In this document: positions 25,063 through 37,751 of the stretch, piece after piece | Position numbering within the stretch: the stretch's first letter is position 1 | Layout of the letters: each line of letters starts with the position of its first letter | From: Desulfurispirillum indicum S5 | GTDB lineage: Bacteria; Chrysiogenota; Chrysiogenetes; Chrysiogenales; Chrysiogenaceae | DNA: 64,000 nt | Direction of reading: 5' to 3' | NCBI RefSeq assembly: GCF_000177635.2 | Contig: NC_014836.1 | Location: 477,501-541,500, forward strand | Notes under the pieces: generated by a model | What the model was told of the DNA's origin: nothing | Databases searched by the model: none | The model's input: only the letters and a program-made list of their open reading frames with translations | Program-made: the position numbers and the translations under genes

Positions 25063-25926
25063 TTATGCGGTTTTTCTCTCTTTGTAATATTTTTGTTCGA
25101 ATGCAGCAGGTGAGAGATACCCAAGTCCCCGCTGCACCCTTTGTCTGTTATAGAACACTTCAATGTACTCGGTTATATTACGTATAGCCTCTTGGCGTGT
25201 CGCATAGCGCTTGTGATAGATCAACTCTGTCTTCAGTATTCCCCAGAAACTCTCAATTGGTGCATTGTCATAGCAATTTCCCCGACGGCTCATGGAAGAT
25301 TGCATGCCATAACGCTCCAATTGTTGCCTGAACTCATTTGAGCAATATTGGCTGCCACGATCGCTGTGGTGAATGAGCCCCTTGCCGGGACGCTCCAGCT
25401 CCACCGCATGCTGCAGTGACTGCATGACAAGGTTCTTGGTCATACGTTCAGACATAGCATACCCCACCAGCTTTTTACTGTAGAGATCCTTGTGACCAGC
25501 AAGGTAGAGCCACCCTTCATCTGTTGGAACATAGGTGATGTCGGTAAGCCACGCCTGGTTAGGGGCACTGGCGGTAAACTCCTGATTCAGTATGTTTGGT
25601 GCCACTGGCAGCTTGTGGTTCGAGTTGGTGGTTGCCTTGAACTTCTGCTTCTGTTTGCACACTATTCCATGCATCTTGCGTACTTTCCTGATCCGGTAGA
25701 GACTGACATGTATTCCATTTGCCATCAGCTCCTGTTGTAGGCGCTCCGGAGAATATGTCTTCCGGGTTTTCTCGTGAGCCGCTTTGATTTCAACCGTGAG
25801 CCGCAGGTTTTCCTTGCGACGCTCTGACACTGGCCGTGTGCGCCATGAATAGTACCCACTGACGGATACATCGAGGACTTCACACAGCAGGCGCAGGTTA
25901 TACTCAGGCTGAAGTGCTTTGATCAT
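25063..25926 (-). CDS. IS3-family transposase OrfB (DDE catalytic subunit)
   Basis: 287 residues. The DDE triad is visible: WLTDITYVPT, GLIHHSDRGSQYCS and NAPIESFWGILKTE, with the HTH_21-type N-terminus YNLRLLCEVLDVSVSGYYSW. It starts in an ATGA overlap with the end of orfA. An A6G slippery stretch (CTAAAAAAGG, about 25965-25974) near the orfA end suggests production of an OrfAB fusion by -1 frameshifting, as in most IS3 elements. Because orfA is interrupted by IS630, normal expression of OrfAB is probably lost. Confidence 0.93.
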   Translation of the reverse strand: MIKALQPEYNLRLLCEVLDVSVSGYYSWRTRPVSERRKENLRLTVEIKAAHEKTRKTYSPERLQQELMANGIHVSLYRIRKVRKMHGIVCKQKQKFKATTNSNHKLPVAPNILNQEFTASAPNQAWLTDITYVPTDEGWLYLAGHKDLYSKKLVGYAMSERMTKNLVMQSLQHAVELERPGKGLIHHSDRGSQYCSNEFRQQLERYGMQSSMSRRGNCYDNAPIESFWGILKTELIYHKRYATRQEAIRNITEYIEVFYNRQRVQRGLGYLSPAAFEQKYYKERKTA

Positions 25927-26142: not shown

Positions 26143-27280
26143 GTGTTTAATTGCAAAAGTTCGCGATATACTGTATATTCATGACAATCGGACCCAAAGG
26201 AGGTTGTCATGGCCAGAAGAGCTCCAATACCTCGCTGCTCAGAGGAAGATCGTCGCACGATTGAAGAGTGGGCCAGTAGTCGAACAATGGAGGCGCGACT
26301 GGTGGAGCGTGCAAAGATCATTAAAAAGTGCCTGGCTGGTTTACCTGTTGGCCAAATTGCAGCCGATCTCAGCATTAGGCCCAACACGGTCATCGCGTGG
26401 CGCAAGCGTTTCGAGGAGCAGGGAATTAAAGGTTTGAATGATCGCCCTCGCTCCGGCAAGCCCCGGAAATACGATGAATCACTACGGGACAGAATCCTGG
26501 AAACCCTGGAGCAGCAGCCACCAAAAGGCCAGGCAAGATGGGACGGGGCCGCATTGTCCGCTCACCTCGGAGTGTCAGACGATGCCGTCTGGCGGGTGCT
26601 TCGCAGAGAAGGCATCTTTCTGTCCCGCCAGCGAAGCTGGTGCGTAAGCACTGATCCTGAATTTACGAGCAAGGCTGCGGACATTGTGGGCTTGTATCTC
26701 AATCCACCGGAAAATGCCATAGTGATTTCGCTTGATGAAAAGCCAAGTATTCAGGCGCTGGAGAGGGCGAGGGGTTATGTTTGCACGAACAACGGCAAGA
26801 TCGTCCAGGGATTAAAAAGTACATATAAGCGTCACGGAACTTTAAACCTTTTTGCGGCGCTCAATGTGGCCACTGGGGCTATCCATGCCAAGACAACGCA
26901 ACTCAAGCGCCGAGTTGAATTTCTGGAGTTCATGGACGAGCTCTTATTGGAATTGCCTGCTGACAGGGAGATCCATGTTATTCTCGACAACTACTGCATC
27001 CATAAGCGAAATAACGACTGGTTGAAAGCCCATCAGAATGTCACCTTTCATTTCACGCCTACTTCTGCAAGTTGGCTCAACATGATTGAGATATGGTTTG
27101 GCATTTTATCGCGCAAAGCGCTGAAGGGGGCAAGTTTTGGCAATGTCGAACAGCTTCGCAAGGCGATAGAGGATTTCATTGAAGTCTACCAGCAAAATGC
27201 AAAGCCTTTCCTGTGGAGAAAACGTGAAGTAAAAGGCAGTCAGCTTAAAAATACTATCGTTAATTTATGCAACTAGACAC
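26143..27280 (+). mobile_element. IS630-family insertion sequence, copy 1
   Basis: 1138 bp between TA duplications at 26141-26142 and 27281-27282. Terminal inverted repeats start GTGTTTAATTGCAAAAG and, on the other end, GTGTCTAGTTGCATAAA. Inserted at TCTAGA within IS3 orfA. It encodes one transposase. Identical by eye over the stretches I compared to copy 2 at 27751-28888, in opposite orientation. Confidence 0.93.
26209..27276 (+). CDS. IS630-family transposase, copy 1
   Basis: 355 residues. N-terminal HTH (LVERAKIIKKCLAGLPVGQI and the RPNTVIAWRKRF helix), linker, and a DDE core: VISLDEKPSIQAL, IHVILDNYCIHK and SWLNMIEIWFGIL. Full length with AAGGAGG 6 nt before the ATG. Members insert at TA. 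Protein identical to copy 2, which indicates recent movement. Confidence 0.95.
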   Translation: MARRAPIPRCSEEDRRTIEEWASSRTMEARLVERAKIIKKCLAGLPVGQIAADLSIRPNTVIAWRKRFEEQGIKGLNDRPRSGKPRKYDESLRDRILETLEQQPPKGQARWDGAALSAHLGVSDDAVWRVLRREGIFLSRQRSWCVSTDPEFTSKAADIVGLYLNPPENAIVISLDEKPSIQALERARGYVCTNNGKIVQGLKSTYKRHGTLNLFAALNVATGAIHAKTTQLKRRVEFLEFMDELLLELPADREIHVILDNYCIHKRNNDWLKAHQNVTFHFTPTSASWLNMIEIWFGILSRKALKGASFGNVEQLRKAIEDFIEVYQQNAKPFLWRKREVKGSQLKNTIVNLCN

Positions 27281-27750: not shown

Positions 27751-28888
27751 GTGTCTAGTTGCATAAATTAACGATAGTATTTTTAAGCTGACTGCCTTTT
27801 ACTTCACGTTTTCTCCACAGGAAAGGCTTTGCATTTTGCTGGTAGACTTCAATGAAATCCTCTATCGCCTTGCGAAGCTGTTCGACATTGCCAAAACTTG
27901 CCCCCTTCAGCGCTTTGCGCGATAAAATGCCAAACCATATCTCAATCATGTTGAGCCAACTTGCAGAAGTAGGCGTGAAATGAAAGGTGACATTCTGATG
28001 GGCTTTCAACCAGTCGTTATTTCGCTTATGGATGCAGTAGTTGTCGAGAATAACATGGATCTCCCTGTCAGCAGGCAATTCCAATAAGAGCTCGTCCATG
28101 AACTCCAGAAATTCAACTCGGCGCTTGAGTTGCGTTGTCTTGGCATGGATAGCCCCAGTGGCCACATTGAGCGCCGCAAAAAGGTTTAAAGTTCCGTGAC
28201 GCTTATATGTACTTTTTAATCCCTGGACGATCTTGCCGTTGTTCGTGCAAACATAACCCCTCGCCCTCTCCAGCGCCTGAATACTTGGCTTTTCATCAAG
28301 CGAAATCACTATGGCATTTTCCGGTGGATTGAGATACAAGCCCACAATGTCCGCAGCCTTGCTCGTAAATTCAGGATCAGTGCTTACGCACCAGCTTCGC
28401 TGGCGGGACAGAAAGATGCCTTCTCTGCGAAGCACCCGCCAGACGGCATCGTCTGACACTCCGAGGTGAGCGGACAATGCGGCCCCGTCCCATCTTGCCT
28501 GGCCTTTTGGTGGCTGCTGCTCCAGGGTTTCCAGGATTCTGTCCCGTAGTGATTCATCGTATTTCCGGGGCTTGCCGGAGCGAGGGCGATCATTCAAACC
28601 TTTAATTCCCTGCTCCTCGAAACGCTTGCGCCACGCGATGACCGTGTTGGGCCTAATGCTGAGATCGGCTGCAATTTGGCCAACAGGTAAACCAGCCAGG
28701 CACTTTTTAATGATCTTTGCACGCTCCACCAGTCGCGCCTCCATTGTTCGACTACTGGCCCACTCTTCAATCGTGCGACGATCTTCCTCTGAGCAGCGAG
28801 GTATTGGAGCTCTTCTGGCCATGACAACCTCCTTTGGGTCCGATTGTCATGAATATACAGTATATCGCGAACTTTTGCAATTAAACAC
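27751..28888 (-). mobile_element. IS630-family insertion sequence, copy 2, inserted in rdrB
   Basis: 1138 bp, TA duplications at 27749-27750 and 28889-28890, same ends as copy 1 but inverted. Target again TCTAGA. It splits rdrB 55 codons before its original stop. Confidence 0.93.
27755..28822 (-). CDS. IS630-family transposase, copy 2
   Basis: 355 residues, same sequence as the product at 26209-27276 (HTH domain and D-D-E core LDEKPS, LDNYCIHK, NMIEIWFG). Transcribed in the same direction as the rdrB gene it interrupts. Confidence 0.95.
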   Translation of the reverse strand: MARRAPIPRCSEEDRRTIEEWASSRTMEARLVERAKIIKKCLAGLPVGQIAADLSIRPNTVIAWRKRFEEQGIKGLNDRPRSGKPRKYDESLRDRILETLEQQPPKGQARWDGAALSAHLGVSDDAVWRVLRREGIFLSRQRSWCVSTDPEFTSKAADIVGLYLNPPENAIVISLDEKPSIQALERARGYVCTNNGKIVQGLKSTYKRHGTLNLFAALNVATGAIHAKTTQLKRRVEFLEFMDELLLELPADREIHVILDNYCIHKRNNDWLKAHQNVTFHFTPTSASWLNMIEIWFGILSRKALKGASFGNVEQLRKAIEDFIEVYQQNAKPFLWRKREVKGSQLKNTIVNLCN

Positions 28889-31004
28889 TAGATATTTCAT
28901 CAGCCTTATTAACTTGTTCGCTCAGGCCAAGCCATCTAAATATATGGTGCTCATGGTAACTTGAATAGTAGCTGATGGCCACATTGCTACTTGGCATGGT
29001 TTCCACAACTATTTGCTTAGAGTTGATACTTTTTATGACGCGTTGTTGCAGCGCACTATAGACATCATCAGGCAAAAAAGAGTTTGGCACTTCTATTAGC
29101 GATTGTGATTGCCTGTAAACGGGTGCTGAATGGTAGCTTCTAAGGATTTTTTTGCAATGGAGTGAGCCTTTTTGCGGAAAGTCCTTTTCAAGCGGATCTT
29201 GCCAGCGTAAACGCCAGAATTCCTGCAGGGTAGATGCGGTCAAAGGAGCGTCAGTGTCGAAGATTCGATGGGCATATTCGAGTGCTTCGCGCTCTGCTTT
29301 TATGACATATTCTGACATGCCGTCGACTTCACTTAGCAGCGAGAAGACAAAAATCATATTATCAAGCCATTCACCCATTGGAAGGTATGATGTTGCTCCA
29401 GCTCTGGCACGCCAAAGGGCCGGCTGAATGCCAATTGCTGTGGCGTGGCCAATCCTGTCGCCAGGTTGCAGGTCAAGATATTCCATCGTTTCAAATAAAG
29501 CTCTCATGCCGCTCAGCAGGTGGTAGAAGTCTTCGCCTGCATGATAAGTAAAATGGACAATCCCATTGTTTCGCAAATAGCGGTAAGTTGGAGCAAATAC
29601 CTCAGGAGGTGTATGGAGCTCGTTCCCAGCAGCATCTATGCCGCACAAATACTCGCGAATCCACTGAAAACTTTTGCGTAAAAAGATAATAGAACTAGAC
29701 TGCCTTTTGAGTGTTTTTCGGAGAGAGTAGAATCGGGGAGCAACAATGCTAAACTCTTTAGGGATTGCGTCCCTTTTCTTGATAAAGTGAAAAACCAGCG
29801 TCATGTTCATCCGCTTTTTCTTTATTGCCCGCTCACTAGAAAGAACAGCTTTGTTGAGAGCTGTATCTTGATGGTTTTTAAATGCATATTTTTCATACTC
29901 ATTGATAATAGTGCGCAGAAGTTTGAAACACTCCATGGTCGTTTTTTTAGGGGCAATTCGGGCTTCAAGACAACTGAGGTCTTCGCCATACATCCCTTCA
30001 AGTTGTTTGAAACGTTTGCTAAAGCGCTTTTCAGTGTACTCGCGAAGATTATTGCCAGATATCTTATTGAATTGGTCAAATCCCCATTGATTAGCTTGTT
30101 GCACCAACAGATTAATGAACTGGCCACGGAAGAGGAGATATAAGTGAAAAGCATTGGCAAAATATTGGGTGTTAGATGCATGAAGATGTTGCATAGACAA
30201 TATTAAAAGGAGCGCTTCGGAGTAGAGAGAGATATCATTAGATTCTATCGAGATAGGTATATGCGGCTGAAGTTGCAGTGAGTCAATACGTTTCAATAAG
30301 TTATTTTTTGAAATTGCCCTGTTGTTTTCTATAGCATACCAGAGCAGTGAGCGCAGGGTTTTGGCAATTCGCAGATGACGATATATTTTATTTGGGCTAA
30401 GCGCCCTGTCTAATTGCTGGTACAGCTCGCATATCTCAGGGTTGGTGCGCTTTTCCCTTATATACTTGTGTATTGCTAATGGATTCCTGATGGCATCAAT
30501 CCAGACATAATCTGCTTCACTGGTTCCGTTGATATGAAGATGAAGGTCTTGCAACCCGCTTTCCTGTATCATTGACTCAATTTCTGGGATAAATGGGGAG
30601 GGGAAAGTTGATTTTGCTGAAACTATTTTAAGCCATTGTTTCCAGCGCTCCTGTGGAACTTCTTTCCGTATTTTAGTTACGAGCAGAGGAAGTGGTGAGG
30701 TCAAAGCAATTGTGCGCTGCCACGAATCAAATGCATCGCATTTTACTCTTATTTCATTACCGCGAAAAAAAAGAGGTTCGCTTAGTTTCTCAAGACATGA
30801 CATCAACATCTCACTTAGCGACGCATTTTCCAATTGCTGCATAGAAATCGCGTGCCTATGCAGATAGTCTGGTTTCAGGCTGTCGCGCTCGCGCATCTGC
30901 TGAAATATCGACGTTAGTGCCTGTTTTGGCGTGGGGAATTCGCCATCCAAGTAGTTGCTAAGGAGACGTTGTGAAGAAAAAAGGTGCGCTAGGAAAGACG
31001 CCAT
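28881..31004 (-). CDS. rdrB: RADAR adenosine deaminase RdrB, truncated by IS630
   Basis: 707 codons, the last three (SSV region) partly from the IS end. In the RADAR defence system RdrB is the deaminase that works with the RdrA ATPase and converts adenosine (in RNA or ATP pools) to inosine during phage attack. Adenosine-deaminase motifs occur in order: metal-binding DLHLHINGTSE (H155, H157), GIDAAGNE (455-462), YHAGEDFYH (H488), RIGHATAIG (H520) and ETMPSSNVAI (668-677). The next motif, SSDDP, is cut off by IS630 (see 27582-27748), so the product should be inactive. It starts 3 nt after the rdrA stop with AGGGTGG upstream. Base composition is clearly AT-richer than the core genes. Confidence 0.88.
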   Translation of the reverse strand: MASFLAHLFSSQRLLSNYLDGEFPTPKQALTSIFQQMRERDSLKPDYLHRHAISMQQLENASLSEMLMSCLEKLSEPLFFRGNEIRVKCDAFDSWQRTIALTSPLPLLVTKIRKEVPQERWKQWLKIVSAKSTFPSPFIPEIESMIQESGLQDLHLHINGTSEADYVWIDAIRNPLAIHKYIREKRTNPEICELYQQLDRALSPNKIYRHLRIAKTLRSLLWYAIENNRAISKNNLLKRIDSLQLQPHIPISIESNDISLYSEALLLILSMQHLHASNTQYFANAFHLYLLFRGQFINLLVQQANQWGFDQFNKISGNNLREYTEKRFSKRFKQLEGMYGEDLSCLEARIAPKKTTMECFKLLRTIINEYEKYAFKNHQDTALNKAVLSSERAIKKKRMNMTLVFHFIKKRDAIPKEFSIVAPRFYSLRKTLKRQSSSIIFLRKSFQWIREYLCGIDAAGNELHTPPEVFAPTYRYLRNNGIVHFTYHAGEDFYHLLSGMRALFETMEYLDLQPGDRIGHATAIGIQPALWRARAGATSYLPMGEWLDNMIFVFSLLSEVDGMSEYVIKAEREALEYAHRIFDTDAPLTASTLQEFWRLRWQDPLEKDFPQKGSLHCKKILRSYHSAPVYRQSQSLIEVPNSFLPDDVYSALQQRVIKSINSKQIVVETMPSSNVAISYYSSYHEHHIFRWLGLSEQVNKADEISSV

Positions 31005-31007
31005 ATA

Positions 31008-34000
31008 TTAGCCACCCTGGCTTTCGATATCAGTTGGTTTTTTGGTTTTTGCTGGAGCTTTACTTTGAACGCTGGCGCGAAATCCAACAGCTGTCGCAAT
31101 TTTACTTCTCAGAGCAGTGCCGGGTTTCGAGATCAACGATTCAACGAAGGCATCAAACCCTGCTTTACCCTCTGGTTTATAGTCGCTATCGAACAAGGCT
31201 TTTAATTCTTTTTTAAACGTCGTATCCTTGAGGAGATTTTCTAGGCGTTGATTACTTATGACAGACGGCTTACCTGTGGTCCGAACAGGGGGGATTAAAT
31301 TCAATAGTGAGCTTACTCCAACAACACCGGGGATGACGCAGAATAGCTCTTTATCGATTGCATTTTCAAATAGCTCGTTTGTGCGCTCAATGTATTTTGA
31401 GAACACTCCAGTATTAAAGGAATTATCCTCAGGAATGCTGTCATTAATTTCATCTTTGTTTTCAAAGTAATACCCCCATAATGGGCAAGTAAACAGAAGA
31501 GCAAAGACATTACTTTTTTTCCATTCGGACCATGCTTTCAGGTTGTGAAGGAAGTTGTAGTCAGAGTTTGTCGGGTTTTGCAGGCGAATACTCTCATTCT
31601 TGTGTTTTACAGTGGGGTAAAAACGTGCCATTTCTACCAAAACGGCATTCAGGAACGCGATGAGCTGTCGATGCAATAGGCGGCCTATATAGAGGTCATT
31701 AGTAGTAAAATCATCGCTTTGTTGAGTGAGTGTATAGTAGAACCGCTGCCATATTCGTGACCATACTGCAGCAGGTAGTGGCTCGGCTTCTTGAAATGCC
31801 TTTATCCATTGCATGAAATGCCGTATGAACGTCTCATTTTTCCTGTTATGGTCACGGATAGCATCTTCGCCGTGTAGGTTAAGTGTCGTTATATATTTAC
31901 TACTGGGTGCGTTGTCCACGTCATCATGGTCGTCACCATCTATTTTATCTTTAGCAATGTCTATGGTTTTAAGCATCGGGTATGTGCGTATATGTCCAGC
32001 CCTGTTAAATAGACCGGTCAACCTGTCCTCACCTGTCTCCTTTGAATTTAAATTATGGTCGCTGGATGTAAACACGGCAAGAGCGCTAATAACGTTCATG
32101 ATCGAAGCAAAATAAGGCGATTCATCTTTATGGCCGAGCCCAATAATAAACGGTATACCTATGATATCTTTTGCAATAGAGTTTTGTAGTAGCCATTGAA
32201 TTTCTTTGGGCGTGAAGGTATATCGTTTTTGAGCGAACCAGTTCTTCAATGCATCCTTCGATTCTGATTTGAGTAAAATATAGCTTGATATAGCGGGGTT
32301 GGTGTGAAAGTCCGAATGCTTTATTATTGTAGTGGAGCGAGTTCGAAAGAGGTTGGGAGTAGCGACTAATTTACGTTTTTTGATAATTTGACCATCTGTT
32401 AGTACTTGCAAAGAACCATGCCGGAGGGGTGGATTATTTTTTGGGAATGATCGCATAACGCTGATCCAGCGACGACTATGCGCTAGCGTATCCTGTTCGG
32501 AAAAGGTGTTGAGAGAGCTAAGTATCTTGTTGCTATCAATCTCGTCGTTCGCTTGTGTTAAAGCTTCACGCAACAAACCGCCCGTGATCATGTAGTCAAG
32601 CTGGCTGGCCTTATTCTGTCTGAAGCGCGCATAACTGAGAATAGAAAGAACAAATGCAGCAATATTTTCTTCCTGGTTGGTGTAGCGAGGTACTAACTCA
32701 AGATCTTTAAAAAGTAAGTTAGAGCTGTACATTGCCTCATGTATGCGTGCAATGGCAAGCGTCTGATCTTGGAAGTTACTCAGCCCTTTATGTAAGTTGC
32801 TACTGAATATCCAACTGGCAAAAATATCGCCTAGAACGCTGAGATCCAGTGAAAATGGATCTTTGTCGCCAGATTCGTTGGTGCTTTGTAAGAGCTGCAA
32901 AACCAATCGTAGTGGCAAAGAGGTTATAAATGAGAGATACGCGGGAGCATCTTCCATTGTTGGCATGTTTTCAGCTTCGGTGATTATTCCACACTGATTT
33001 GTAATGAAACGACTTAACCAGTTTGCCATTGTGCGATGAGGTTCGCTTACTTGCAGCTCCTTTTCTTTCATGTTCTTGTATACATATATGTTGTCGGTGT
33101 TCAGCTGCGCCAGTGTCGGCAGCCAAATCCTGTAAGGCGCTTTAAGTAACTTCAGCAGATACTGTTCCTCAAGTGCCTGAACGAGCTCTCGATAGTCAGC
33201 AAAGGGTCGTTCTTTTTCGTATTTGGTTGGAAGTTCGCCAAGTTGCATCCACTGGTGTTTGCGCACTTGGGTAGCATATAATTGAATGTCGCCGCATACC
33301 AGCGTAATCAGGCGCGGGGTTGTTATGAATTTGCGTAAGGTTTCTAAAACTGACCACCCTTTATCAAAAAAGGTATCGACATCATCCAGGGCTATAACAA
33401 ACGCATCAACATCAAGTGCCTTCGCAGAATGCTTAATGAAATTATGAAAGCGCTTATTGAGCATTAACCCAGCGTAGGCATTATTTAGACCTTCTTCCAT
33501 GATGGTGATGGAGTCATCCCAAATTTCCTGCTTTAATACATCTGAGCCAATGCCATCAAGTTGTTTTAAGCCTTCGGCCAGGCATTTGAGACTGTTTGAC
33601 CACTCATCTCGACCATCAGGCAGTTTTGATTCGCGCAGAATATCGCATTCACCATCATCAAATATAGGAGATTGATAACAGCTATAGTGTCTCTGAACTT
33701 TAGCGCGAATTAATGATATTAAGGATAATAGCACATGCTCTTTGGTGTCCATTAATGTTGGATCAAGCATATCGAGACTACATAGTTTAAATTTTGTATC
33801 CTTCTGAATTGTTTTCTCTGAGAGTTTCTTCATGGTAGTAAGAGCAAATGTAGTCTTGCCACTTCCTCTGCCGCCAAAAATGCTTATACTGTAATGACCT
33901 CGTTCAGTTTCGAAGATATCTGTAGCGTTCCCGATAATATCAGAGATAAGTTTTTCAGTTTGGTTGTAAGCTTCGAGATGTATAAACTCTTCATCATTAA

Positions 34001-34061
34001 ATTTTGAGGCGTTATGAGAGTTCTCTAGGATGATATGTCGTGGATTTGTTTGTGTACTCAT
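31008..34061 (-). CDS. rdrA: RADAR ATPase RdrA
   Basis: 1017 residues from the ATG at 34061, chosen because AAGGTGG ends about 5 nt upstream (a GTG three codons earlier overlaps that site). Large KAP/STAND-like P-loop ATPase: Walker A IFGGRGSGKTTFA (residues ~62-72) and Walker B AFVIALDDVDTFFD (~220-233). The long C-terminal helical part has no motif I know. The pairing with an ~760-residue adenosine deaminase directly downstream is diagnostic of RADAR rdrA-rdrB. RdrA forms rings that feed the RdrB shell. It appears intact. AT-rich composition marks horizontal origin. Confidence 0.88.
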   Translation of the reverse strand: MSTQTNPRHIILENSHNASKFNDEEFIHLEAYNQTEKLISDIIGNATDIFETERGHYSISIFGGRGSGKTTFALTTMKKLSEKTIQKDTKFKLCSLDMLDPTLMDTKEHVLLSLISLIRAKVQRHYSCYQSPIFDDGECDILRESKLPDGRDEWSNSLKCLAEGLKQLDGIGSDVLKQEIWDDSITIMEEGLNNAYAGLMLNKRFHNFIKHSAKALDVDAFVIALDDVDTFFDKGWSVLETLRKFITTPRLITLVCGDIQLYATQVRKHQWMQLGELPTKYEKERPFADYRELVQALEEQYLLKLLKAPYRIWLPTLAQLNTDNIYVYKNMKEKELQVSEPHRTMANWLSRFITNQCGIITEAENMPTMEDAPAYLSFITSLPLRLVLQLLQSTNESGDKDPFSLDLSVLGDIFASWIFSSNLHKGLSNFQDQTLAIARIHEAMYSSNLLFKDLELVPRYTNQEENIAAFVLSILSYARFRQNKASQLDYMITGGLLREALTQANDEIDSNKILSSLNTFSEQDTLAHSRRWISVMRSFPKNNPPLRHGSLQVLTDGQIIKKRKLVATPNLFRTRSTTIIKHSDFHTNPAISSYILLKSESKDALKNWFAQKRYTFTPKEIQWLLQNSIAKDIIGIPFIIGLGHKDESPYFASIMNVISALAVFTSSDHNLNSKETGEDRLTGLFNRAGHIRTYPMLKTIDIAKDKIDGDDHDDVDNAPSSKYITTLNLHGEDAIRDHNRKNETFIRHFMQWIKAFQEAEPLPAAVWSRIWQRFYYTLTQQSDDFTTNDLYIGRLLHRQLIAFLNAVLVEMARFYPTVKHKNESIRLQNPTNSDYNFLHNLKAWSEWKKSNVFALLFTCPLWGYYFENKDEINDSIPEDNSFNTGVFSKYIERTNELFENAIDKELFCVIPGVVGVSSLLNLIPPVRTTGKPSVISNQRLENLLKDTTFKKELKALFDSDYKPEGKAGFDAFVESLISKPGTALRSKIATAVGFRASVQSKAPAKTKKPTDIESQGG

Positions 34062-34137
34062 GGTCGCCACCTTTGAATATATTATTAATGAGATTGCTAT
34101 ACATAAATAATAACACCACTTTTGTTTGCAAGATGCC

Positions 34138-34644
34138 TTAAAGTTGGCAAGACGGTAGAGGGTCGGCGTTATAGTCGCCGGTTTTGTCGTGTTTGGTGGT
34201 GTAGCGAAACTGCAGGCTCTGGCGGTAGTCCAGGGCTTTTTTCAGCAGATAGAAGGTTTCCAGATGGCCTTCCAGGTCTTCAAAGCCCAGTTCGATATGG
34301 AAGTTCTGGCGGGCAAGGGGCTGGCCGCGCAGGATGCGCTTGATGGTGTTGCGGTAGTCGGGGTGTACCTGGCCTACGAGGCTGGCCAGGAGTTCGAGGA
34401 CGATGGTTTCATCGGTGCGGGGGCCTGTGGCAAGGCGGTACTGGGTGGTCAGCAGGTAGCTGCCGTCTTCCTGGCGTTCGATTGGCAGCTGGGCCAGGCG
34501 TTCGAAGAGGTCTTTCTGGATGGTGCGCACGGTGACGCCAAACTCCTGGGCCAGTTCGGGTGGGCGTACGCGTTCTCCGTTGCCAAGCATGGTCAGGATG
34601 GTGGTCAGCCGGTACATGGCCTTGTCGTAGCTATGTCTGGCCAT
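34138..34644 (-). pseudogene. WYL-type transcriptional regulator, 3' truncated
   Basis: 168 codons. MARHSYDKAMYRLTTILTML, RPPELAQEFGVTVRTIQKDL and SYLL form the N-terminal winged HTH, parallel to the full regulator at 36414-37346 through about QSLQFRYT; it then diverges and stops at ADPLPSCQL, where the intact paralogue continues into the WYL core (ADPYRLACLRGRWHLLAW). The regulator has thus lost its ligand-sensing WYL and C-terminal parts at the edge of the RADAR island. Start ATG 34644 has GGGAG 5 nt upstream and overlaps the DUF1232 gene by 14 bp. Confidence 0.8.
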
Positions 34645-34996
34645 GGTCGCTCCCGTTGCCAAACTGCGCGAATCGCTCAATATCGCCTTTTATGGCTGCC
34701 ATGGCGGCACCCAGGACGGCGATGTCGTCCATCCAGCCAACGCCGGGGAGGAAGTCGGGTATGACGTCGAGGGGCAGGATGACGTAGGCCAGGGCTCCGG
34801 CGATGATGGCCCAGGTGCGGGGGCTGAGGCTGAATCCTCTGGTGGTGATCATGCGGTAGAGCAGGATGAAGTCTTCATGCCAGCTTTTGTCCTGATGGCT
34901 GCGGGCGAAGTCTTCGGCCTCTGCGGGGTCGAAGTCGTCGGCCATGTTTTCGGCTTGCCTGCGGGCGCGCGCTTTGTACTCTTCGCTGATGCTCAT
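34631..34996 (-). CDS. DUF1232 (YkvA-like) membrane protein
   Basis: 121 residues. The C-terminal AYVILPLDVIPDFLPGVGWMDD is the DUF1232 hallmark, part of a hydrophobic hairpin, preceded by a charged N-terminus. Function unknown. ATG 34996 has GGGAG about 10 nt upstream. First gene of a two-gene operon with the truncated WYL regulator, preceded by the palindromic element at 35026-35070. Confidence 0.85.
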   Translation of the reverse strand: MSISEEYKARARRQAENMADDFDPAEAEDFARSHQDKSWHEDFILLYRMITTRGFSLSPRTWAIIAGALAYVILPLDVIPDFLPGVGWMDDIAVLGAAMAAIKGDIERFAQFGNGSDHGQT

Positions 34997-35025
34997 GCCG
35001 GAGTCTCCCTGTTGTGATTGGTCGT

Positions 35026-35070
35026 CTTCAGGAGAGTATGGCACAGGGTGGCGAACGCGTGAGTTCGCCT
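35026..35070 (-). promoter_or_regulatory. Palindromic promoter/operator of the DUF1232-WYL operon
   Basis: GGCGAA (35050-35055), 8 bp, TTCGCC (35064-35069), followed toward the gene on the minus strand by CCCTGTGCCATACTC. The same arrangement precedes the second WYL operon (37364-37404). CATACT would be a -10 element and the palindrome lies over the -35 region, so repression by the WYL protein itself is likely. Confidence 0.6.
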
Positions 35071-35238
35071 TGCGGAATCGGGCGATGCCTTCTGTGCTTG
35101 TGAAAGTATAGTACATATTGTTTCTGTGGTGAAGGAAAAAGTCTCACTGTAAATGAATGTAACGTTTCGATGAGCTTGGCGTCCATGAGCGGGTTCGCGG
35201 GAAATAAAACAGGGTGTCGGCGGCGATGGCTCGGGTTG

Positions 35239-36417
35239 TTACCCTCGTTTTTCCGCGATCCATGCGGTGACGCTGGCTTCAATATCCCTGCTGACCTTCC
35301 GGTTGCAGGCGGCTTTGACTTCGGCCAGAATCCAGGTGCTGCCGGCGCGTTTGAGCCCTATGGTGGCGCGGGTGTCCGGCATATGCAGTCGGTAGGCGAA
35401 GTACTTTCCACAGATGATGTCGAAGGCATAGCCGCCGACGCAGTGGCGCATGGTTTTGCCTTCATGGTACAGGTCGGCGATGTGGGTGATGGGCGTGATG
35501 TGCGCGTTGCCGGGCAGTGGTGGCTGGGGGAAAGGCTCCTTGAGTTTGGCGTCGCGGGCGAGCCTGCGTTCAAGCTCCAGGTCGTTGAATCTGTCGGCGA
35601 TGCGGTCGTGGCACCTTTGCAGGTCGTCAAGTGTGCGGCAGTTGCGGGCCAGGGCCGTCGCACTTTCCTGCTCCAGCTGCCGTGCCATCATCTGCATGTC
35701 GCGCAGGGTGTTTTCTGTCTGCCAGAACTGCGCTTCGTCCATGGGAGGCAGGGCATTGCGCATGGGCATGTGGCGCAGCAGGGGATAGTCCCACAGCAGC
35801 AGGAAGCGTTGCCGCGAAAGTGCCCTGTGGTGGCTGAGTTCAGCGCGGAAAGCGGGGTCGTGCAGGGCCTGGATGAGCTTGTTGCTGTCGGTGCGTGTCC
35901 AGGGTTCCAGGGGGAATTTCCCCAGGGTTCGGAAGGCGCCTTTGACGGTGGGCAGCCCCAGTTCGCGGGCCAGCTCCTGACGGGGGCGGTGCAGGGCGTG
36001 TTGGAGATCGCAGAACCTGGTGTCCAGGCCCACGGCGCGCTGACACCACAGCCACAGCAGCAGGGGAGTGGTGTGCAGCAGGCAGCGGGCATCGTGGCTG
36101 TGGCAGGCAAGCTGAAGCAGCAGGAGGCTGTGGGTGCCTGGAACCTGAAAGAGTTTTTGCCAGGGTTCGGCGAAGGAGTTGCGCCATGGCTCGGCCTGGG
36201 GGTGCCAAAACAGTTCGGGTATGAAGGGCAGTTCGCATGGCTCCACCTGTTGGGTGCCTTCGTCGGTGGCGCGCACACAGTGGCCTGCCGGCGCGGCGTG
36301 AAAGCGGAAGGCCTGCACGCCCATTTCCCGCAGGAGCTGCGCGCGCACCTGCAGGTACTGGTGCTGTTCATCCCAGTGCAGTTCGGTTTCGCTGGTCATG
36401 TCCGATAGGCTCATCAT
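35239..36417 (-). CDS. PcfJ-like domain protein
   Basis: 392 residues. The C-terminal ~110 residues match the PcfJ-like family: ITPITHIADLYHEGKTMRHC, then VGGYAFDIICGKYFAYRL and ATIGLKRAGSTWILAEVKAA. The N-terminal ~270 residues are helical and rich in His, Leu and Arg, without a recognised domain. PcfJ genes are known from conjugative plasmids and from chromosomal islands; the role is unknown. It starts within the stop of the WYL gene (TGATG overlap), so the two are co-expressed. Confidence 0.75.
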   Translation of the reverse strand: MMSLSDMTSETELHWDEQHQYLQVRAQLLREMGVQAFRFHAAPAGHCVRATDEGTQQVEPCELPFIPELFWHPQAEPWRNSFAEPWQKLFQVPGTHSLLLLQLACHSHDARCLLHTTPLLLWLWCQRAVGLDTRFCDLQHALHRPRQELARELGLPTVKGAFRTLGKFPLEPWTRTDSNKLIQALHDPAFRAELSHHRALSRQRFLLLWDYPLLRHMPMRNALPPMDEAQFWQTENTLRDMQMMARQLEQESATALARNCRTLDDLQRCHDRIADRFNDLELERRLARDAKLKEPFPQPPLPGNAHITPITHIADLYHEGKTMRHCVGGYAFDIICGKYFAYRLHMPDTRATIGLKRAGSTWILAEVKAACNRKVSRDIEASVTAWIAEKRG

Positions 36418-37346
36418 CGGCTGCGCTCATCCAGGTAGGCTTCCACCTGGCGTATCAGGCGGGCTTCCATGTGGGGGTTGTCCTCAATGGTCACGTCGGG
36501 CATCCAGTGGCGGATAAAGGCCAGCACTTCCCGCTCTTCGCGGTAGTGCAGCCGCAGTATCAGGCTGTCGGCGGTTTCGCGGACTTTCTGCAGATTCTGG
36601 CTGAGGGCGCAGCGCAGAAAACGATGGGCATTGCCGGTGGCTTTGAGGGTTACGCTGGTGCTTCCCTGGTCGATCCAGCCGTAGGGGGTCGCTTTGCTGC
36701 AGAGGTTGCGGATGTGCTCCTCCACGCCTGGCTGGGGTGTGAAGGTATCGGGACCTGCGCGCAGCTGCTCCATGGACTTCATATGGAAGGTGGTGATGCT
36801 TTCGGCGTGGTGATCCCAGGCCAGCAGGTGCCACCGGCCGCGCAGGCACGCCAGGCGATAGGGGTCGGCGCAGTGCTCCCGACGTGCGCCACCGGTATGG
36901 GTATAGGTGAAGCGCAGCCGCTGGCAGCTGTGCAGGGTGCGCTTGAGCAGGGTAAAGGTTTCCTGATGGCTGCCAAGCTCCTCCAGTCCCAGGTTCAACA
37001 GAAAGTTGCGACGGGGCAGCTCCTGGCAGGGCAGAATTCGCTGAACGGTTCGGCCAAATTCGGGGTGTACCTGATCCAGCAGTTCGGCGGCCAGCTCCAG
37101 AATCAGGATTTCATCGGTCTGGGGCAGGCGTGGCAGGCGGTAGGAGTCCCCCAGGAGATAGCTGCCATCCTGGTGCCTCTCAATGGGGATGTGGCTCAGG
37201 CGCTCAAAGAGATCCTTCTGGATGGTTCGCACCGTAACGCCAAACTCTTCGGCCAGCTCCCGAGGTCGCAGCCGTTCGCCGCTGCTCAGACGGGTGAGGA
37301 TTGTGGTCAGGCGATAGAGGGCCCTGTCGTAGTCGCGTTTTGCCAT
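36414..37346 (-). CDS. WYL-domain transcriptional regulator
   Basis: 310 residues. N-terminal HTH (RLRPRELAEEFGVTVRTIQK), middle region, then the WYL domain near 165-200 (ADPYRLACLRGRWHLLAWDH) and a C-terminal WCX-type part ending YLDERSR. Such regulators bind DNA as dimers and sense nucleotides or single-stranded DNA ends; several (BrxR, CapW) control defence operons. ATG 37346 has GGGAG 6 nt upstream. It is closely similar to the truncated regulator at 34138-34644. Confidence 0.9.
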   Translation of the reverse strand: MAKRDYDRALYRLTTILTRLSSGERLRPRELAEEFGVTVRTIQKDLFERLSHIPIERHQDGSYLLGDSYRLPRLPQTDEILILELAAELLDQVHPEFGRTVQRILPCQELPRRNFLLNLGLEELGSHQETFTLLKRTLHSCQRLRFTYTHTGGARREHCADPYRLACLRGRWHLLAWDHHAESITTFHMKSMEQLRAGPDTFTPQPGVEEHIRNLCSKATPYGWIDQGSTSVTLKATGNAHRFLRCALSQNLQKVRETADSLILRLHYREEREVLAFIRHWMPDVTIEDNPHMEARLIRQVEAYLDERSR

Positions 37347-37363
37347 GTCTGCTCCCGTTTTTA

Positions 37364-37404
37364 CTGGGAGTATGGCACAGGGGGGCGAAGGGGTGGTTTC
37401 GCCT
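37364..37404 (-). promoter_or_regulatory. Palindromic promoter/operator of the WYL-PcfJ operon
   Basis: GGCGAA (37384-37389), 8 bp, TTCGCC (37398-37403), then on the minus strand CCCTGTGCCATACTC, the same layout and spacing as at 35026-35070. The rest of the 37347-37667 gap (about 200 bp) holds no gene. It contains a 19 bp stretch GCGCAGCGAACGGGCGAGA also found at 23639-23657. Confidence 0.62.
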
Positions 37405-37667: not shown

Positions 37668-37751
37668 TGGTACGAGGAGGGGGAGTCGAACCCCCACGCC
37701 GAAGGCGCTAGATCCTAAGTCTAGTGCGTCTGCCAGTTCCGCCATCCTCGC
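37668..37751 (-). tRNA. tRNA-Leu (anticodon TAG)
   Basis: Class II tRNA: GCGAGGA acceptor, GGCGGAACTGGCAGACGC D-arm, anticodon arm CTAGACTTAGGATCTAG with TAG, long variable arm CGCCTTCGGCG, T-arm GGGGGTTCGACTCCCCC and encoded CCA. Confidence 0.95.

Follow-up and report, generated by a model that had tools for sequence, protein, structure and literature searches.

We analysed a 64,000-nucleotide (nt) window of the Desulfurispirillum indicum S5 genome (NC_014836.1, positions 477,501 to 541,500; positions below are those of the window) that holds two paralogous operons, A and B, each encoding a regulator of the WYL family. The host genome, of the Chrysiogenota lineage, is a single contig of 2,928,377 bp. 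On the minus strand the order is promoter B, WYL-B, a PcfJ-like gene, promoter A, a DUF1232 gene, the truncated WYL-A, rdrA, and rdrB. A preliminary description had noted a palindromic block common to the two promoters and proposed that it is an operator shared by the WYL proteins. The features that bear on this proposal are:

37386..37401, minus strand: operator B core, CGAAACCACCCCTTCG, within GGCGAA-N8-TTCGCC at 37384-37403; centre diverged, arms kept
37369..37374, minus strand: putative extended -10 of promoter B, TGC-CATACT, in the conserved 15-mer at 37368-37382
36414..37346, minus strand: WYL-B, intact helix-turn-helix (HTH)-WYL-WCX regulator of 310 amino acids (aa); Pfam WYL E=3.8e-14
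35239..36417, minus strand: PcfJ-like gene; Pfam PF14284 E=1.4e-10
35052..35067, minus strand: operator A core, CGAACTCACGCGTTCG, within GGCGAA-N8-TTCGCC at 35050-35069; identical to the Desulfobacterota consensus
35035..35040, minus strand: putative extended -10 of promoter A, TGC-CATACT, 11 nt beyond operator core A, in the conserved 15-mer at 35034-35048
34631..34996, minus strand: DUF1232 gene, 121 aa from ATG; Pfam PF06803 E=1.3e-14; homologues at loci L016-L022
34138..34644, minus strand: WYL-A, truncated regulator of 168 aa with an intact HTH; the frame breaks off within the WYL domain

The Pfam matches bear out the gene calls of the preliminary description for both operons. The DUF1232 stop overlaps the WYL-A start by 14 nt; between the WYL-B stop and the PcfJ-like gene the overlap is 4 nt. 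WYL-B scored 52.9 bits for WYL (cut-off 21.8), 24.5 for HTH_11 (cut-off 25), and 23.7 for WCX (cut-off 23.9); the domains stand in the order of an HTH-WYL-WCX protein, with HTH_11 and WCX just under cut-off. WYL-A has an HTH_11 match and lacks a WYL match in Pfam, because the gene is cut inside that domain. Its frame is lost at residue about 163; beyond this point, sequence resembling the family (YRLANFK) can be read in another frame as far as about 34137, confirming that one regulator is truncated. WYL-A is left without roughly half its WYL domain and the whole of WCX, and, judging from known WYL structures, would probably not function as a normal dimer. The two proteins are 57% identical. 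A third WYL protein of the genome is distant (26% identical), and by sequence WYL-B is the only intact candidate of this WYL family in the genome.

We examined how far the two promoters agree. Both palindromes and the 15-mer CCCTGTGCCATACTC were found as described, with the 15-mer beginning one base past the palindrome on the minus strand in each case. The equal spacing reported earlier holds between palindrome and 15-mer but not between block and start codon (about 37 nt in A versus 21 nt in B). The surrounding sequence differs as claimed; extended identity was not seen in the flanks. Promoters A and B are identical at 32 of 38 bases, and the next-best place on either strand of the window reaches 23. 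With up to three mismatches allowed, the 22-mer TTCGCCnCCCTGTGCCATACTC matches only these two sites in the 2.93-Mb genome (reversed control, 0), so the full block occurs only at the two WYL operons and is not part of a dispersed repeat. The bare palindrome has one further exact occurrence in the genome, in a coding-like region without the 15-mer; the palindrome alone is therefore weak evidence, and the weight lies on the full block. A degenerate form of the operator with one mismatch gave 24 extra matches in the genome versus 21 in the reversed control, none of them promoter-like. Third codon positions of WYL-A and WYL-B are only 43% identical, compared with 84% for the block, which argues for conservation beyond duplication; by this comparison, the promoter block is selectively conserved.

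An alignment of WYL proteins scanned against sampled genome contigs returned 80 loci, whereas a scan of such contigs with WYL-B alone detected no relatives. The best eight loci come from Desulfobacterota-like metagenome-assembled genomes (MAGs) and match WYL-B at 32-38% identity over the aligned part; the closest, which follow a DUF1232 gene, are at 35-38%. A DUF1232 gene lies directly upstream of WYL in six of the eight (L016-L019, L021, L022), and CGAACTCACGCGTTCG precedes that DUF1232 gene exactly in L017, L018, L021, and L022 and with one mismatch in L016 and L019. The Desulfobacterota site is operator A core, letter for letter. Between the phyla, the 15-mer and other surroundings are not conserved, apart from a -10-like hexamer 10-11 nt further on. 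CGAACTCACGSGTTCG is present in 5 of 395 sampled Desulfobacterota genomes, all from one small class. Co-occurrence of motif and WYL gene in relatives, a point raised in the preliminary description, was also found: of the 22 genomes in that class, nine carry a site with at most one mismatch, nine carry WYL (the match counted in G313 being a fragment only), and seven carry both. That the block is a functionless leftover of a recent duplication, or a dispersed repeat, is in our view highly improbable. The units are indeed paralogous, with the WYL identity given above and the same ribosome-binding region (AACGGGAGC), but the block is far more alike than the third codon positions, it has only two copies in the genome, and the same site and spacing recur in another phylum.

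DUF1232 genes without an adjacent WYL also bear the exact site, at L101 (G057) and at L120 and L123 (G449). G057 has a DUF1232-WYL operon elsewhere. These solo genes suggest control in trans. Considering the rarity of the block, the 16-bp site before DUF1232-WYL in another phylum, the co-occurrence, and the solo DUF1232 sites, we think it likely that the adjacently encoded HTH-WYL-WCX regulators use the palindrome as their operator, in support of the shared-operator proposal.

Several observations weigh against this reading. The association between site and WYL in the 22 class genomes (hypergeometric p=0.006, uncorrected) ignores kinship. L016 is without a clear -10 at the usual distance, and no recognised gene follows the sites at L113, L110, and L143. 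In G449, a MAG that may be incomplete, two exact sites accompany solo DUF1232 genes and WYL was not found; G055 has WYL without DUF1232 and without the site. Four of the 16 positions of operator B, all central, differ from the consensus, and the specificities of WYL-A and WYL-B may have diverged. G449 and G055 would fit a site that belongs to a non-WYL regulator of DUF1232 genes, an explanation to which we give a small chance. Against it, operon B has the site and WYL but no DUF1232, and a dyad of 16-20 bp agrees in length with the roughly 19-20 bp of known WYL dimer sites. In the sequences compared, the site follows DUF1232-WYL promoters and stays when DUF1232 is gone, as in operon B, which ties it to WYL.

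We made further observations on sites and relatives. At L113 (G313), L110 (G057), and L143 (G449), the operator takes the form CCAGCGAACTCACGCGTTCGCTGG before a TATAG-like box, with one mismatch in L143. All three sites are near contig ends; that of L113 lies behind a dnaQ-like exonuclease gene, and an Rfam match was not found for L113. L111 and L137 have operator-promoter units followed by about 110 bp of DUF1232-leader-like sequence, with no recognisable DUF1232 found behind, and are apparent decayed copies. G224 holds a decayed version with a two-mismatch site, a DUF1232 remnant, and an intact WYL. Betaproteobacterial WYL relatives (L024, L026, L029) appear to share a different upstream dyad, AACGACATCGTT or similar, possibly their own operator. 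Close relatives of WYL or PcfJ were not found elsewhere in the sampled phylum. PcfJ matches on two plasmids have no WYL annotated alongside, and phage relatives of PcfJ were not found. One distant WYL is present in Moraxella phage Mcat5; a scan of viral contigs did not find a WYL relative, and one virus has a chance-looking site without promoter context.

Which protein would bind the two sites? WYL-A and WYL-B agree completely in residues 34-50 (EFGVTVRTIQKDLFERL, the recognition-helix region), and the relatives are almost the same there. WYL-B can therefore plausibly control both promoters, as the preliminary description had suggested for the intact regulator, and we regard this as most likely on the sequences at hand. 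Alternatively, the operators might be private, WYL-A acting only on CGAACTCACGCGTTCG and WYL-B only on CGAAACCACCCCTTCG, with operon A now unregulated. The cores differ at 4 of 16 positions and the non-palindromic centre is otherwise highly conserved, which would favour this, but the shared recognition-helix region and the identical outer arms and -10 block make it unlikely.

Promoter geometry bears on the sign of regulation. In 14 of the 15 promoters (predicted, unmapped), 10 or 11 nt separate the site from the -10, and the D. indicum promoters have TG one base before the -10 hexamer. At a spacing of 16-18 nt, the best -35 match does not exceed 4 of 6 positions in any of the 15 and is mostly CTCACG inside the palindrome. 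On the predicted promoters the site covers about -39 to -24, and the -35 falls near its midpoint. Such an arrangement is of the DriD type, in which a poor -35 lies at the middle of the operator and the distance to the -10 is fixed; DriD is an activator with the -35 at the centre of its site (PMC12340889). SiwR, a mycobacterial WYL activator, has its site between -10 and -35 (PMC10693628), whereas the repressor CapW has a site overlapping the -10 (PMC9122588) and the repressor BrxR a site downstream of the promoter (PMC9122601). The position resembles DriD and SiwR and not CapW and BrxR, so we slightly favour positive control in the manner of DriD, by a dimer around a weak -35, at roughly even odds. 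Activators of the DriD type switch transcription on when ssDNA is bound by their WYL domain.

A repressor would use the same operator and regulator. The WYL dimer would block RNA polymerase, as in the CapW/BrxR type, with release once a nucleotide or nucleic-acid ligand occupies the WYL domain. We hold this to be a real contender, at somewhat below an even chance. CapW and BrxR repress operons from promoter-region palindromes (PMC9122588, PMC9122601), the present site overlaps the core promoter, and several Desulfobacterota promoters combine a near-consensus -10 with A+T-rich upstream DNA and may be strong without an activator. However, the present site covers the -35 rather than the positions used by CapW and BrxR, and none of the 15 promoters has a good -35.

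We propose the following course of events, in which control in trans and the duplication history are inferred from site, spacing, conservation, and gene order. A WYL dimer would bind CGAAC-N6-GTTCG (looser form GGCGAA-N8-TTCGCC) 10-11 nt before the -10 box and govern its own operon. The ancestral order would be promoter-DUF1232-WYL, because it is found so in relatives, and this unit would have been duplicated in the D. indicum lineage. Promoter block B runs directly into the WYL ribosome-binding region AACGGGAGC, and A keeps AACGGGAGC just before WYL-A; hence the simplest account of copy B is that the DUF1232 gene separating promoter and WYL was lost, and PcfJ would have been gained behind WYL. 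Copy A would have kept DUF1232, its WYL being broken by a frameshift, with RADAR DNA now behind it. WYL-B, with the same recognition helix, would then govern both promoters, and perhaps RADAR by read-through.

The RADAR genes lie directly behind operon A:

31008..34070, minus strand: rdrA-like gene of the RADAR defence system; PADLOC RdrA E=6e-22
28881..31004, minus strand: rdrB-like gene (adenosine deaminase family) of RADAR; PADLOC RdrB E=4e-29

The genes for the predicted ATPase RdrA and the predicted adenosine deaminase RdrB are thus adjacent at 28881-34070. rdrA begins 67 nt past the WYL-A stop on the same strand, and the RADAR DNA is AT-rich. A minus-strand terminator-like site was not found between WYL-A and rdrA, making read-through from promoter A into RADAR possible. 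RADAR stands behind the truncated WYL-A, but rdrA and rdrB were not recognised in the relatives' loci examined. RADAR may have landed behind the promoter of a WYL-controlled operon with a broken regulator, and may now be driven by this captured promoter under WYL-B acting in trans; we consider this rather doubtful, at about one chance in five. If true, an insertion would have placed an anti-phage defence under a foreign stress regulator.

Some features of the RADAR surroundings are recorded here. Past the frameshift, the reading frame that again encodes WYL-like sequence runs on without a stop into that of rdrA (34070-34157), which is probably coincidental. Next to the RADAR genes lie two identical IS630-like transposase genes of 355 aa each, oppositely oriented (26209-27276 and 27755-28822), and an IS3-like transposase (25063-25926) adjoins. 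Integration at the tRNA-Leu (37668-37751) was considered and rejected, as a second copy of at least 14 bp of the tRNA was not found in the 64-kb window.

To our knowledge, few WYL regulators have a known operator. Here we describe a well-defined, putative operator-regulator pair of a known kind, with a RADAR neighbour, in which conservation across two phyla would define the operator to the base. The predicted target set is very small, two promoters in the genome, so regulator, site, and targets (DUF1232, PcfJ, perhaps RADAR) are directly testable. The pair also offers a functional handle on DUF1232, for which a literature search found plant papers only and no bacterial study; a paper treating both DUF1232 and WYL was likewise not found. 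Finally, it may exemplify the takeover, in nature, of an orphaned promoter by a paralogue.

We compared this system with characterised WYL regulators. A profile of nine relatives matched PafBC and two other solved chains at E<=0.001, the best being 6sj9 (E=4.7e-9); the BrxR, CapW, and DriD chains were not among the matches at this threshold. A predicted structure model was of low confidence (pLDDT 62), too weak for a fold search. PafBC, the mycobacterial activator of 6sj9, acts near -24; unlike the dimer proposed here, it is a heterodimer in which only PafB touches promoter DNA and which needs RNA polymerase to bind (PMC12340889). CapW and BrxR, repressors of CBASS and BREX (PMC9122588, PMC9122601), would have in common with the present system a WYL dimer on a palindrome in the promoter region of its own operon, and nearby defence genes, and in BrxR, too, a single island holds two related boxes; their sites differ in position as described above, and their operons are CBASS and BREX, not DUF1232 or PcfJ. 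SiwR (PMC10693628) has a similar imperfect palindrome of 19 bp and a small neighbouring operon as its target, but that target is a DinB-like operon next to siwR, whereas here the DUF1232 or PcfJ genes share the regulator's operon. DriD, the Caulobacter activator (PMC12340889), has the same HTH-WYL-WCX architecture and a pseudo-palindrome of about 20 bp over a poor -35 at a fixed -10 distance; unlike DriD, the D. indicum site heads the regulator's own operon.
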